DNA of 64,000 nucleotides from Nostocales cyanobacterium LEGE 12452 (lineage in GTDB: Bacteria > Cyanobacteriota > Cyanobacteriia > Cyanobacteriales > Nostocaceae). Position 1 is the first letter of the stretch, and the number at the start of each line of letters is the position of its first letter. This document shows positions 42,143 through 50,569 of the stretch, piece after piece. The position numbers and the translations under genes are program-made. The notes beneath the pieces are model-generated. The model did not search any database, was not told where the DNA came from, and saw only the letters and a program-made list of their open reading frames with translations. Where the stretch lies: positions 1 through 64,000 of the forward strand of contig JADEXV010000010.1 of the NCBI GenBank assembly GCA_015206945.1. Reading direction: 5' to 3'.

Positions 42143-43459
<1,317 letters not shown>

Positions 43460-43529: not shown

Positions 43530-44588
43530 TTACGGATAAAACCCCAACTTGGGCAACCCCAAGGTTTCATCCCAGCCCATCATCAGGTTTAGACACTGAA
43601 TCGCTTGGCCCGCCTGTCCTTTAATTAGATTGTCAATTGCTGACATGACAATTACGCGACCTGTGCGTGGGTCAACTTCCACACCGATGTAGCAAAGATT
43701 ACTGCCGTTAGCCCACTTGGTTTGCGGGTAAACGCCGCTACCGCAGACTCTTACCCAAGGAGAGTTGCGGTAGAAGGCTGAGAAAATTGTGATTAAGTCA
43801 TCTCGCACTAAACCGGGGTCGCTCATCGTGGCATATACCGTTGCCAAAATACCGCGTACCATTGGGACAAGGTGCGGTGTAAATTGGATCATGAGTTCGT
43901 GACCGGCTAATTCACTGCAAATTTGCTCAATTTCTGGGGTATGACGGTGACGACCAATATTGAAAGCGGCTATGGAGTTGTCGGCTTCAGCTAGTAATAA
44001 GTTGGTTTGAGCCTGCCGTCCACTGCTAGATGTACCAGACTTGGCATCGATAATAGCTGTTTCTGGTCTGATTAAACCTTGCTTTAAAAGTGGCGAAAGT
44101 GCAAGGAGACTGGCAGTGGGATAGGAACCAGGACAGCCAATGAGTTGAGCTTCAGAAATGCGATCACGATAAAGTTCTGGTAATCCATAAACTGCTGTAG
44201 CTGCGATTGTGCGATCGCTTCTCTCTGTACCATACCAATTTGTATAAGTTGTCAAATCACTGAACCGATAGTCTGCACTCAAATCTAGTACTTTACATCC
44301 TTTTTCCAAAAGTTTGGGTGCGATTTGACAAGCCAAACCATTTGGTAAAGACAGGAAAACGACTTCACAGCGGTGAGCAATTATTTCTGGTTCTACTGCT
44401 TCTATTAGCAGGTTAGTTGCATGAGCTAAATGTGGATAGAGATCCCCAAAGGATTTCCCGATACTAATCTCACCTCCTAAATAAACCATTTCGACTTCTG
44501 GGTGATCCATCAGTAGTCGTACTAATTGCACTCCACCATAGCCCGACGCGCCAACAATCCCAACGGGTACGCGTCTAAATTTGCCCAT
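43530..44588 (-). CDS. argC: N-acetyl-gamma-glutamyl-phosphate reductase with Cys-to-Ser at the active site
   Basis: ArgC (352 residues) makes N-acetylglutamate semialdehyde in arginine synthesis. The Rossmann motif [10 protein letters not shown] is at about 10-19, the active-site segment at 151-159, [11 protein letters not shown] with the conserved His at about residue 217, and a C-terminal [19 protein letters not shown]. The active-site segment reads GCPGSYPTA. In the family it is PGCYPT, and the nucleophilic Cys would be residue 155, here Ser (codon TCC). A Cys sits three residues earlier (152). The enzyme might be inactive, weakly active or an error in the sequence. The rest of the protein looks intact. 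Confidence 0.9.
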
Positions 44589-44902
44589 GATCTGAAATCC
44601 TTATCCCATGAATGGTTAATTCGTTCTCAGCTATCAACAATATCAGCGACCAGACGCACAGCGCACAAAACGTCTTAAACCCCTCTACTTTGTTCTGAGA
44701 AGGTAAAGGAGCAAACAAATGATTATTATTCCTCATCCCCTTCATACTTTACTGTCGCTGCACTTTATCGCCACTTTTAATGGCAAAAATTTTTGCCCCG
44801 TTATCAAATCATTGCTAGTCTACTTCTCTGCCTTATAAAGGAGCTACAATCTAAAAGAAGAAATTGTTAAAAAAATTTACGTTTATAGCTGGAAATCTTT
44901 CT

Positions 44903-46576
44903 GTGTCACAGCCTAATCCTACCCAAGCTTTTAAATTTGATTCGATTGATGCCGCTTTAGCAGACCTAAAAGCTGGTCGCGTCATTGTAGTGGTAGATGA
45001 TGAAAATAGAGAAAATGAAGGCGACTTAATTTGTGCTGCCCAATTTGCCACACCGGACATGATTAATTTCATGGCGGTGGAAGCAAGAGGACTAATTTGT
45101 TTGGCAATGACAGGCGATCGCCTAGACGAGCTAGACTTACCCTTGATGGTAAGCAACATTACAGATACTAACCAAACTGCTTTCACTGTCAGTATTGATG
45201 CCGGGCCAGAATTAGGTGTCACCACAGGCATCTCAGCAGAAGACCGCGCCCGAACTATCCAGGTTACTCTCAACCCAGCCACAAAACCCACCGATTTACG
45301 CCGTCCTGGTCATATTTTTCCCATTCGCGCTAAGGCTGGAGGCGTACTCAAACGTGCAGGACATACGGAAGCTGCTGTGGACTTAGCTAGATTAGCAGGG
45401 CTATACCCAGCAGGGGTGATTTGTGAAATTCAAAACTCCGATGGTTCAATGGCGCGGTTGCAGCAGTTAGTTGAATACGCTAAACGTCACAATTTAAAAA
45501 TTATTAGTATTGCTGATTTAATAAGTTATCGCTTACAGCACGATCGCTTAGTGTATCGTGAGGTGATTACTAAACTGCCTAGTCAATTCGGTCAGTTTGA
45601 AATTTATGCCTATCGCCATACTCTGGATAATACAGAACACGTTGCAATTGTCAAGGGCGATCCAGCTAACTTCAAAGATGAGCCAGTGATGGTGCGGATG
45701 CACTCAGAATGCTTAACTGGTGACGCTTTGGGGTCTTTGCGCTGCGATTGTCGGATGCAGCTTGAAGCTGCACTGAAAATGATTGAGGCTGCTGGTCAAG
45801 GTGTAGTTGTATACCTGCGTCAAGAAGGGCGGGGAATCGGCTTGATTAATAAGCTGAAAGCCTACTCGTTGCAGGATATGGGACTGGATACAGTAGAGGC
45901 AAATGAGCGTTTAGGATTTCCTGCTGACTTGCGAGACTACGGGATGGGGGCACAAATGCTCATGGACTTGGGCATCAAAAAGATTCGTTTGATTACCAAT
46001 AACCCGCGTAAAATTGCTGGAGTTAAGGGTTATGGGTTGGAAGTAGTCGATCGCGTGCCATTGTTGATTGAGGCAACCGATTACAATTCCTATTATCTAG
46101 CGACAAAGGCGAAAAAGCTGGGTCACATGCTGTTACAGACTTATCTGGTGACAGTAGCAATCCACTGGCAAGATGACCCGGAAGCTGTAACGGAACGTTA
46201 TGAACGCTTAGAAAAACTGCGACACTTAGCGAAAACTAACGATCTATTGTTGCAGGAAGAAGCGCGTCCCTTAGCGATCGCTATATTTGACGAGCCATCT
46301 TTAACAGTACACTTGGGTTTCGATCAGGCAAAAGTTGCTAGCTGTGATTGGTATCGCCAGGATGGTCATCCTTATATACAGGCAATCTTCCAAATTTTGG
46401 ACAACCTAGCAACTTTGCCATACATCCAGAAATTAGAATTTCTAATTTCCTCTGGTTGCGATCCTTTAAGTAATTTACAAGTCCAACTAGATCGGCAGAC
46501 ATTCGCGGATGGTACATTGCCTTCATCAATTAGCGATCGCTTGGAGACGCAACAAATTTACAGCTTTAGCAAATAG
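44903..46576 (+). CDS. ribBA: Bifunctional riboflavin biosynthesis protein RibBA
   Basis: The N-terminal domain is 3,4-dihydroxy-2-butanone 4-phosphate synthase: [14 protein letters not shown] at about residue 31-44, [28 protein letters not shown]. The central domain is GTP cyclohydrolase [27 protein letters not shown] with the zinc Cys cluster, and [15 protein letters not shown]. The C-terminal 130 residues are an additional domain usual in cyanobacterial RibBA, without known activity. I chose the GTG at 44903 (557 residues); the frame also opens at a TTG at 44864. No FMN riboswitch signature is present upstream. Confidence 0.94.
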
Positions 46577-46964: not shown

Positions 46965-48677
46965 TTAATAATGAGTTGCCGACTTGCGATGATGGACGGC
47001 TGTAACGCCATCAGTATCTAACAATTTGCCACTCTCGACAGTTGCATAAACCAGCCAGTGGTCGCCAGATTCCATCCGGTTTTGTACGGAACATTCGAGA
47101 TATGCTAGAGCATCGGTAAGTATGGGAGAACCGCTTTCAGTTTCTTGGGCGGCAACATCAGCAAATCGGTCTTGTCCTGGGCCGAATGGTTTGAGGAAGT
47201 GCTTCATCAATCCCAAATGATTGCCTTCTTTAAGAATATTGAGGACAAATTTGTTTCCTGTATGCGTCAGTGTTTCTACTGCGCGATCTTTGGCAACGGC
47301 GATGGTTAAACCAGGTGGACTAAAGCTGGCTTGAGATACCCAAGAAGCTAACATGGCACTGGAACGATCGCCTTCTTTGGCTGTAAGAACGCAAAGAGAA
47401 CCGACAATCCGACCAACTGCTTGTTCTACATTTGTTGCAGGTTGACTTGGCGATCGCACTTTTCTCGCTTTCTTCAGTGCTTGGGCAAAGTCGGTTCCAG
47501 CTTCTTCACACAATTGTAATGTGGCATCGTCGGGTTTGAATTTTACGCGGATTGTATCAAAACCAAACCGATAGCCAGCATCTTTTAATTTACCCTCAAT
47601 TAAATCAACCGCTTCCCCACTCCAGCCAAAGGAACCAAAAGCACCGGCGAGTTTATTGTTAGTGGCGGTGGATAAGACAATTCCTAAAGTTGTTTGTACG
47701 GGTGTCGGTGCATGACCGCCAAGGGTAGGAGAACCGATAATGAAACCCCCGGCTTTTTCCACAGCCGCCCGGATTTCTTCTGGTTCAGTAAACTCGCAGT
47801 TAATCGATTCTACAGCTACACCAGCTTTTGTGATCCCACGAGCGATCGCTTGGGCTAATGTGGCTGTATTTCCATAAGCCGATGCATAAATCAAAGCTAC
47901 TGTCAAGTCAGCAGAAGTTTGCTGTTGACTCCATTCCCGATAAGCTTTGGTCAGGTCGATTAAGCCATAGCGTACCAAAGGCCCGTGTCCATTGGCATAC
48001 ATTCGCACGGGAAAATCAGCAAGTTTATCTAACGCTGTTTCAACTTGACGGGCGTGGGGAGCCATGAGGCAATCAAAATAATAGCGCCGATCCTCGTTAT
48101 ATACTTCCCAACCTTCATCAAATACCTGATCTCCACAAACGTGCGCCCCAAATAACTTATCTGTGTACAGAATTTCTGTTTGTGGATCGTAGGTGCAGAG
48201 TTGATCTGCATAGCGGGGATTGGGAGTGGGAATAAATTGTAAATTATGCCCATTACCCAAATCTAGAGTTTCTTCGCCGCGCATGACAAGAATTTGCAAA
48301 TCTGGATTTTCCAGCGCCGCACGTAAATTTATCGCTCCTGGATTAGAACACACAAAGGTGATTTGCGGGGCAATTTCTAACAAAGCTTTTAAAGTTGCAG
48401 CTCGATTAGGATTTACGTGTCCCAAAATTACATAATCTAAATCTTCGAGATGGAAACGTTGTTGCAAAGCTTCTAAATAAATTTGCGTAAACGTTTCTCC
48501 CGGAGGATCGATAATTGCGGTTTTCTCGCTTTCGATTAAATAAGAATTAGCAGTTGTACCCTTAGCAAGAGCATATTCAATTTCAAATCTCAGCCTTGAC
48601 CAACTGCGCGATCGCAGTATTCTCGTATTTGTAGCAATGGGGAAAACTTGAACGTCACGGGGTTTATTTTTTGACAT
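46965..48677 (-). CDS. flv1B: Flavodiiron protein, Flv1 type (probably Flv1B)
   Basis: This 570-residue three-domain flavodiiron protein has a metallo-beta-lactamase-like domain (about 1-250), a flavodoxin domain (about 260-400, ASAYGNTATLAQAIARGI) and a C-terminal NAD(P)H:flavin reductase domain (about 420-570). The di-iron motif HxExDH is replaced by HVNPNR, the feature that separates Flv1 and Flv2 from Flv3 and Flv4. Flv1 pairs with Flv3 to reduce oxygen with electrons from photosystem I. It lies 164 bp downstream of the Flv3-type gene. In Anabaena the adjacent flv1B-flv3B genes are heterocyst-specific, so the B call is by synteny. Confidence 0.85.
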   Translation of the reverse strand: MSKNKPRDVQVFPIATNTRILRSRSWSRLRFEIEYALAKGTTANSYLIESEKTAIIDPPGETFTQIYLEALQQRFHLEDLDYVILGHVNPNRAATLKALLEIAPQITFVCSNPGAINLRAALENPDLQILVMRGEETLDLGNGHNLQFIPTPNPRYADQLCTYDPQTEILYTDKLFGAHVCGDQVFDEGWEVYNEDRRYYFDCLMAPHARQVETALDKLADFPVRMYANGHGPLVRYGLIDLTKAYREWSQQQTSADLTVALIYASAYGNTATLAQAIARGITKAGVAVESINCEFTEPEEIRAAVEKAGGFIIGSPTLGGHAPTPVQTTLGIVLSTATNNKLAGAFGSFGWSGEAVDLIEGKLKDAGYRFGFDTIRVKFKPDDATLQLCEEAGTDFAQALKKARKVRSPSQPATNVEQAVGRIVGSLCVLTAKEGDRSSAMLASWVSQASFSPPGLTIAVAKDRAVETLTHTGNKFVLNILKEGNHLGLMKHFLKPFGPGQDRFADVAAQETESGSPILTDALAYLECSVQNRMESGDHWLVYATVESGKLLDTDGVTAVHHRKSATHY

Positions 48678-48841: not shown

Positions 48842-50569
48842 TTAGTAGTGGTTGCCGACTTTACGATGATGCACAGCAGTCAAACTTTCTGGTTTAGAAA
48901 CCCGTCCAGCATAGACGGTGCTATATACTGCCCAATGGTCGCCGCAATCCATTCTACTAATAACTTCGCACTCCATATAGGCGAGGGCATCGTTGAGTAT
49001 GGGCGCACCATTTTCGGCTGGCTGAGTTCTCACACCTTCAAAGCGATCTGCACCAGGGGCGAACCGTTTCAAAAAGTGTTTCATTAATGGTTGGAAATTG
49101 CCTTCTTCTAAAACGTTGAGAACAAAGCGATCGCCTACTTGCATAAGTGATTCAATAGCCCGATCTTTGGCGACTGCAATGGAGAATCCCAAAGGTTTGA
49201 AGCTAGCTTGAGCAACCCAGGAGGCTAACATCGCACTGGATACATCGCCTTTTTTGGCAGTAATAATATATAATCCGCCGCTGATTCTACCTAATGCTTT
49301 ATCTAAGTCAGCACCAAGAGATTTCATGGCTTTGATGTTGCGATCGCGTGTTACCCATTGAGCTAAGTCTGTACCCGCTTCTTCACACAGTTTGTAGGTA
49401 TTTTCTGTAGGCGTTTGTTTAATCCGAATTGGTGGAAAAACTGTTGTCAAACCCAAATTGCGGAATTTACTCACCAAAGGATCTATCGGCTCATCATCGC
49501 CACCACCACTTTCAAACACACCGATAGCTTGCTTTTCTTTGGCAGATCCTAAAACTGTGCTGATTGCTGCTTGGATGCTCGCAGCACTCGACGAAGCCGG
49601 AGGTAATCCAACGATTAGCCCAGCACAGCGGCTAACGAGTTCCCGCAGTTCTTGTAAATCGACTTCCGATCCCAAATCGACAATTTCCACTGCGACACCG
49701 GTTTTACCGATACCGTTGGCAATTGCTTGGGCGAGGCGATCGCTATATCCGTATTCGGAAACGTAAAATATCCCAACTGCTGTTTCTGGCTTGGCTTGGC
49801 TTTGGCTCCAAGTACGGTAACGTCCAACTAATTCCTCAACATTGTGAGATAATAATGGCCCGTGTCCTGTGGCAATCATACTGATGGTTTTCAGTTCTCC
49901 CATGCGCTTCAGGGCAGACAGAACCGATCGGGCATTCGGACCCATCAAACAATCGTAGTAGTAATGAAAGTCTTCTTCGATCGCTGCCAGGTTTTCATCA
50001 AAGGTGCTATCTGAGCAATAGTGCAGCCCAAAGGCATCGCAGGTGTAGAGAGTTTTGGTTTTGTGGTCGAAGCTGAAAATTGTATCGGGCCAATGTAAAT
50101 TTGGAGCAATCACAAATTCAAATTCATGACCATTGCCCAAATCCAAGCGATCGCCATTTTTCACAATCCGCCGCTTAAATGGCTGATGTACCAAATCCTC
50201 AAGAAACTGAATCGCCACTTTAGAACCGACAACGGTTATTTCTGGAGCCATTTGCAGCAAATCTTTAACTAAACCGCTGTGGTCTGGCTCAGTGTGACTG
50301 ATAATTAAATAATCAATCTCTGTTGGGTTGAGTAGTCCAGTAAGCGTATCAAAGTATAGTTGACGAAACTTTTCGTGGGAGGTATCAACTAAGGCAGTCT
50401 GCTCTCCACGGATGAGAAACGAGTTATAAGTAGTACCGTTTTGCAGACCAAACTCAATATCGAAGCGATCGCGATCCCAATCCAAAGAACGAATTGCCGT
50501 CGTCTCTTGAGCAATCTCTACAGTCTGTATGGTGAGCCGTTTTTCAGTTTTTTCGGTGAGCGCTACCAT
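48842..50569 (-). CDS. flv3B: Flavodiiron protein, Flv3 type (probably Flv3B)
   Basis: This 575-residue flavodiiron protein has the same domain order as its neighbour. It keeps the canonical di-iron motif in ISHTEPDHSG, with further ligands in the beta-lactamase-like domain. The flavodoxin domain contains VSEYGYSDRLAQAIANGI, and the C-terminal flavin-reductase domain contains SAMLASWVAQASFKPLG. A strong Shine-Dalgarno AAGGAGG is five bases or so ahead of the ATG. It is the first gene of the flv pair. Flv3/Flv1 heteromers reduce O2 to water; the heterocyst pair protects nitrogenase. No clear NtcA site (GTAN8TAC) is visible upstream. Confidence 0.87.
   Translation of the reverse strand: MVALTEKTEKRLTIQTVEIAQETTAIRSLDWDRDRFDIEFGLQNGTTYNSFLIRGEQTALVDTSHEKFRQLYFDTLTGLLNPTEIDYLIISHTEPDHSGLVKDLLQMAPEITVVGSKVAIQFLEDLVHQPFKRRIVKNGDRLDLGNGHEFEFVIAPNLHWPDTIFSFDHKTKTLYTCDAFGLHYCSDSTFDENLAAIEEDFHYYYDCLMGPNARSVLSALKRMGELKTISMIATGHGPLLSHNVEELVGRYRTWSQSQAKPETAVGIFYVSEYGYSDRLAQAIANGIGKTGVAVEIVDLGSEVDLQELRELVSRCAGLIVGLPPASSSAASIQAAISTVLGSAKEKQAIGVFESGGGDDEPIDPLVSKFRNLGLTTVFPPIRIKQTPTENTYKLCEEAGTDLAQWVTRDRNIKAMKSLGADLDKALGRISGGLYIITAKKGDVSSAMLASWVAQASFKPLGFSIAVAKDRAIESLMQVGDRFVLNVLEEGNFQPLMKHFLKRFAPGADRFEGVRTQPAENGAPILNDALAYMECEVISRMDCGDHWAVYSTVYAGRVSKPESLTAVHHRKVGNHY

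Follow-up and report, generated by a model that had tools for sequence, protein, structure and literature searches.

Does the argC gene of Nostocales cyanobacterium LEGE 12452, which encodes serine where the catalytic cysteine is expected, reflect a misread base, a dying gene or a protein that has been kept for something other than its chemistry? The window, that is, the whole 64,000-nucleotide stretch of contig JADEXV010000010.1 that was analysed, carries this gene at 43530–44588 on the minus strand. Its translation, a 352-residue type-1 ArgC with Ser155, is a candidate conserved pseudoenzyme. The protein scored 433 bits against TIGR01850, the NCBIfam model of type-1 ArgC, for which the cut-off is 233.6; its sequence matched ArgC structures, and its predicted fold matched the ArgC structure 1vkn with an E value of 2.3e-36. 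The predicted structure had a mean pLDDT of 76.9 and was poor at residues 184–216, so no distances were taken from the model. In sequence, length, domains, predicted fold and genomic locus, the protein is like classical ArgC (PDB 1vkn and 8afu), from which it differs by the replacement of the catalytic cysteine with serine and by changes at G188 and Y209.

The initial annotation had read the PGCYPT motif as PGSYPT, and we found this reading to be accurate: the motif is GCPGSYPT, and codon 155 (44124–44126, minus strand) is TCC, where intact relatives have TGY for the catalytic cysteine. The other changes seen here, all read on the same strand, do not agree with its statement that the remaining motifs are intact. 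Codon 188 (44025–44027) encodes serine in place of the glycine of the substrate-channel GAG motif, codon 209 (43962–43964) encodes phenylalanine in place of a substrate-site tyrosine and, by sequence comparison, codon 256 (43821–43823) encodes serine in place of arginine. Each of these changes (G188S, Y209F and R256S) falls at a site that is invariant in our reference set, which comprises 71 unique type-1 sequences whose genomes lack type 2, the second ArgC subfamily described below. By contrast, the HRH motif at residues 214–216 (H214, R215 and H216; 43941–43949) is intact, and it reads HRD in a sister branch. Also present (row L001 of the alignment) are G13, G16 and G19, which we take to be the NADPH-binding glycine motif.

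The initial annotation had further proposed that a cysteine had moved to position 152. Judged from the alignment, Cys152 (codon TGT, 44133–44135, minus strand) is ancestral in these cyanobacteria and was not relocated, as every one of the 209 type-1 rows has it, with or without Cys155, a count that includes repeat copies of the same gene. His214 is likewise kept in all 209 rows. In intact cyanobacterial ArgC, codons 152–155 (44124–44135) read CPGC, a CxxC pair, and the corresponding residues are NPGC in the Thermotoga maritima and plant enzymes; a redox role for the Cys152/Cys155 pair is possible.

A sequencing error or a private mutation of one strain could be entertained if this single-codon change were viewed alone, but we give either practically no chance, given that 34 of the 42 type-1 genes examined in the genus (own included) have Ser155, in three different codons. 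Of the 53 genomes of the genus, 52 yielded a type-1 gene and the remaining one is only 72% complete; the 42 genes examined come from those 52. Ser155 thus occurs in 33 other genomes of the genus, and named records that have it include Nostoc punctiforme NIES-2108 and Nostoc flagelliforme FACHB-838. The remaining eight genes keep Cys155 and have Asp in place of His216 (HRD). Among the loci compared, all relatives of at least 92% identity have Ser155, encoded by the synonymous codons TCC, TCA and TCT. Nostoc sp. WHI (L057) has Ser155 with G188, Y209 and R256 still intact, which suggests that in this lineage the cysteine probably went first.

If Ser155 is genuine, another gene might supply the reaction, and the initial annotation had raised the possibility of a second argC elsewhere. 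We found that the genome (8.38 Mb in 551 contigs, 99.97% complete) contains one further ArgC-like gene, on contig C28. Its 331-residue product scored 508.7 bits against TIGR01851 (argC_other; cut-off 229.85) and has an intact SNPGCYPT motif. The suggestion was thus right in that a second gene exists, although this gene belongs to another ArgC subfamily, type 2, and is no duplicate. All 53 genomes of the genus also gave a weak match of the type-2 kind to a type-1 query; the type-2 query itself was run on part of them. Type 2 kept PGCYPT at all 51 loci compared, and it has no shared genomic context: its surroundings vary between genera, with the commonest neighbour family present at 8 of the 51 loci. 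At five of the type-2 loci L179–L226, an aminotransferase-like gene nearby looks by eye like argD. Genome G145 has a second, partial type-2 match (C285, 27494–27934; residues 176–330) about 18 kb from the full gene.

The type-1 gene, by contrast, sits in a conserved setting. It is flanked by eno (enolase; 42170–43459, plus strand, from the open reading frame list) and by ribBA (44864–46576, plus strand), which was named by reading of its translation and which we used for a species-like tree. Both are usual neighbours of type-1 argC. In rows with type 2, the stretch around type-1 argC contained a near-full eno in 88 of 102 cases and ribBA in 101 of 102; for rows lacking type 2, the figure was 34 of 45 for each gene. 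Many of the stretches were short. Because this setting is common to relatives with and without type 2, we regard type 1 as the native gene.

We then asked how loss of the cysteine relates to the presence of type 2. Across 145 Nostocaceae genomes, a type-1 query matched in 144 and type 2, defined as matches above 400 bits, was present in 49, all of which keep type 1. Cys155 was lost in 14 of these 49 genomes but in none of the 95 with type 1 alone, all of which match the pattern with cysteine at 155 (Fisher's test, 7e-8, with kinship ignored). The 14 losses comprise serine in six genomes of the genus (own included) and in G030, G111, G132 and G157, and alanine in G067, G107, G130 and G155. Similarly, among 50 named genomes, type 2 was present in 16, and the genes without Cys155 (L033, L057 and L101) all fell within those 16. 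Type 2 is uncommon more widely: a search of 388 genomes of the order gave 27 carriers, all of them Nostocaceae, and a draw of 386 genomes across the phylum gave 16. A search of the phylum draw for non-cysteine codons, using a pattern that can miss cases because the flanking residues must match exactly and codons with a middle G are not covered, matched 12 of the 386 genomes; 11 were true non-cysteine genes, all in genomes with type 2. One apparent counter-example, G259, which had a non-cysteine match and no type 2 at an E value of 1e-50, was rejected because the matching stretch is not in the reading frame of the gene around it, which looks like one for a dTDP-sugar reductase. Absence of type 2 is less sure for G162, G092 and G110, which are less than 90% complete, and for 11 order-level rows (L019–L029) it was judged by a single type-1-query match rather than by a type-2 search. 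In the course of these searches, no ArgC match at an E value of 0.001 was obtained with the type-1 query in G041 (3.8 Mb, 99% complete), G018 and G868, possibly reflecting arginine auxotrophy or assembly gaps; G037 gave two type-1-query matches and no type 2.

The association extends beyond the cysteine. When 27 motif sites were compared after identical sequences had been merged, deviations were seen in 77 of the 88 unique type-1 sequences that come from genomes with type 2 and in 1 of the 71 that come from genomes without it; the other 11 of the 88 have no motif change. To account for kinship, changes were placed on a tree built from 83 ribBA genes (52 of them from genomes with type 2 and 31 from genomes without), after 4 of 87 rows with no usable ribBA (L149, L080, L091 and L107) had been dropped. 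This tree requires four changes at Cys155, six at Cys155 or His216 and 13 at any of nine motif residues, and the changed rows (14, 21 and 40, respectively) all come from genomes with type 2. A 59-row argC tree that includes another order requires five changes at Cys155. For Cys155, there are only four independent pairs, so that a sign test cannot reach 0.05. The chance that all changes fall on type-2 branches, given branch lengths, is 0.135 for Cys155, 0.05 for Cys155 or His216 and 0.0015 for the nine motif residues; these figures are cautious because the tree is rich in genomes with type 2.

The changes are also concentrated where catalysis and substrate binding take place. According to PMC10170137, the catalytic site of D. 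acetiphilus ArgC (DaArgC) consists of C149 and HRH at 208–210, the GAG motif at 182–184 is part of the substrate channel, and the residues targeted for engineering were S178, G182, A183, Y203 and L233. By alignment, these residues correspond to C155, 214–216, 188–190, S184, Y209 and L240 in our numbering, with G188 matching DaArgC G182 and Y209 matching Y203. Nine of the ten sites listed there are invariant in the set without type 2, and position 189, which is variable, was left out. On the ribBA tree, we counted 104 changes at 139 otherwise invariant sites, of which 30 fell at the nine catalytic and substrate sites against 6.7 expected, a number reached in 16 of 200,000 permutations; the site list is the paper's own and was consulted after the changes were known. 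A wider list of 26 invariant sites, drawn up partly post hoc, took 50 of the 104 changes, a number reached in 0 of 20,000 permutations. Other sites that changed recurrently were G16 of the NADPH-binding glycine motif, G39, G151 and Q325. In genus g18, Cys155 is kept both by the type-2 carriers G086 and G117 and by G033, which lacks type 2, and G086 and G117 are unchanged at all 139 sites; type 2 together with an unaltered type 1 is as expected if the gain of type 2 precedes the damage.

We had noted beforehand the prediction that type 1 would be damaged where type 2 is present, and two genomes from another order of the class, G690 and G772, both among the 16 type-2 genomes of the phylum draw, have Ser155 together with G188S. 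Their type-1 genes remain with their own family on one side of a branch with support of 92, whereas their type-2 genes group with those of Nostocaceae with support of 96. Because the two placements differ, these genomes probably acquired type 2 by transfer and lost Cys155 anew. Type 1 was present in 41 of 42 genomes of their family; among 30 type-1 genes compared there, the 27 from genomes without a type-2 match keep the motif, one of them with Phe156. A third type-2 carrier in that family, G855, keeps Cys155.

Despite these losses, the type-1 gene has been retained. No stop codon was found in the aligned stretches of the 209 type-1 rows. Pairwise summed dN/dS of type-1 argC, taken only from pairs with dS of 0.05–1.5, which are non-independent and among which closer pairs inflate the ratio, was 0.084 in the Ser clade (0.047 for ribBA), 0.105 in the Asp216 clade and 0.085 in the Ala clade. 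Four other groups with type 2 gave 0.082 to 0.168, and the four that lack type 2 gave 0.043 to 0.066; the ribBA values for all eleven groups ranged from 0.035 to 0.105. The ratio of argC to ribBA was 1.3 to 2.5 in groups with type 2 and 0.8 to 1.8 in those without. Type-1 argC is thus kept under purifying selection, with a mild relaxation in the type-2 groups, where its dN/dS exceeds that of ribBA. A recent pseudogene was rejected on the basis of the open frames and of dN/dS well under 1. Catalytic residues have been lost while purifying selection and an open frame persist, as in a conserved pseudoenzyme. Separately, in L177 (G096:C137), from a genome without type 2, type-1 argC is divided between two reading frames at about residue 270.

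Within the samples, then, the changes are restricted to genomes with type 2, have arisen repeatedly and have left open frames under purifying selection. The explanation that we favour, and consider probable, is that type 2 took over the reaction and that the native type 1 became, several times, a conserved and probably non-catalytic protein. On this account, a genome would first gain a type-2 ArgC able to reduce N-acetylglutamyl phosphate, and the native type 1 at eno–argC–ribBA would be freed from catalysis. Its active site would then be lost, in the present lineage probably at Cys155 first and later at G188, Y209 and R256, with parallel losses occurring separately in several lineages, while the protein itself would be retained under selection, most likely in a non-catalytic capacity. 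The loss of type-1 reductase activity and the takeover by type 2 are inferred. The initial annotation's option of an altered enzyme probably holds, if taken as an inactivated one; its relocated-cysteine idea was mistaken.

That altered type 1 remains well conserved suggests that it has another job. The part that was lost varies with the lineage (the nucleophile, His216 or an NADPH-motif glycine), so neither catalysis nor cofactor binding is likely to be the common ground for the retention of type 1. A scaffolding or regulatory role, such as holding ArgB, PII, ArgJ or the type-2 ArgC, would fit. More tentatively, at somewhat under an even chance, ArgC may have an indispensable second, non-catalytic job throughout, so that its chemistry is shed whenever type 2 supplies the reaction. 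As some lineages lost the nucleophile and others altered the NADPH-binding motif, only the folded scaffold would be needed for this job, for example as a partner of ArgB–PII or ArgJ that sets arginine and cyanophycin flux.

Among the rival explanations, a new catalytic activity ranks above slow decay, and slow decay above residual ArgC activity. In the first, type 1 has been neofunctionalised towards another acyl phosphate, hydrolysis, or chemistry based on the serine or on Cys152. The recurrence of G188S/T/I, S184A/G, C155S, Y209F and G16D with R215H on separate branches looks directional, and Cys152 and His214 are kept in 209 of 209 rows. In addition, PMC10170137 describes a shift towards formyl phosphate in DaArgC variants that carry G182V. 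However, the parts lost differ by lineage (the nucleophile to Ser or Ala, His216 or Gly16), so that no common chemistry is apparent, and we consider this reading unlikely.

Less likely still is that type 1 is a redundant gene in slow decay that will eventually be lost. The 1.3- to 2.5-fold excess of argC over ribBA dN/dS in the type-2 groups would fit such decay, as would the stepwise pile-up of substitutions seen from L057, in which Ser155 occurs with G188, Y209 and R256 intact. By contrast, dN/dS of 0.08–0.17 in seven type-2 groups is not near 1, the 209 rows are free of stops, and type 1 is kept in all 49 Nostocaceae genomes with type 2 and in all but the one incomplete genome of the genus. 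We find it harder yet to credit that the Ser155 protein is still a working ArgC, with Ser155 or Cys152 as its nucleophile and type 2 as an auxiliary isozyme. Cys152 lies three residues upstream and is invariant, and HRH and the NADPH-motif glycines are intact in this protein, but Cys152 is equally invariant where Cys155 is kept, Cys155 has become alanine in one clade, and G188 and Y209 are altered as well.

Conserved pseudoenzymes in general have lost catalytic residues and remain under purifying selection; the type-1 case differs in being repeated within one family beside a second, non-orthologous ArgC, the type-2 subfamily (TIGR01851) present in the same genome with PGCYPT intact. In the open-access literature that we searched, no report of ArgC as a pseudoenzyme was found. 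The closest engineered parallel is the formyl phosphate reductase DaArgC1-3 (PDB 8afv; PMC10170137), in which the same pocket residues were changed (G182 and S178, equivalent to G188 and S184) and the native reaction was lost; in the variants starting with G182V, native activity fell by almost three orders of magnitude. DaArgC1-3 differs in being laboratory-made, with Val and Ile substitutions, and the catalytic cysteine is not among the three changes listed for it.

These lineages, spread over two orders, constitute a natural experiment in which the catalysis of a housekeeping enzyme may be told apart from whatever else the protein does. A structural or regulatory function of ArgC in cyanobacterial arginine and cyanophycin synthesis thereby becomes testable. 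In practical terms, a standard family model labels the altered protein as ArgC with high confidence, and the wrong gene may as a result be credited with the reaction in metabolic models of Nostoc. The argL gene of Nostoc ellipsosporum presumably resembles argC. It is an arginine gene whose mutant forms akinetes without cyanophycin (Leganes 1998, as described in PMC4586427).

Finally, we inspected the surroundings of the gene. A consensus search found no NtcA-type box in the stretch upstream of argC, between it and ribBA, or in the type-2 locus (L002). The whole window contains 19 GTA-N8-TAC palindromes, compared with 9.9 expected from shuffles, and two of them lie inside argC. The adjacent long genes at 46965–48677 and 48842–50569 resemble, by eye, a flavodiiron protein pair.
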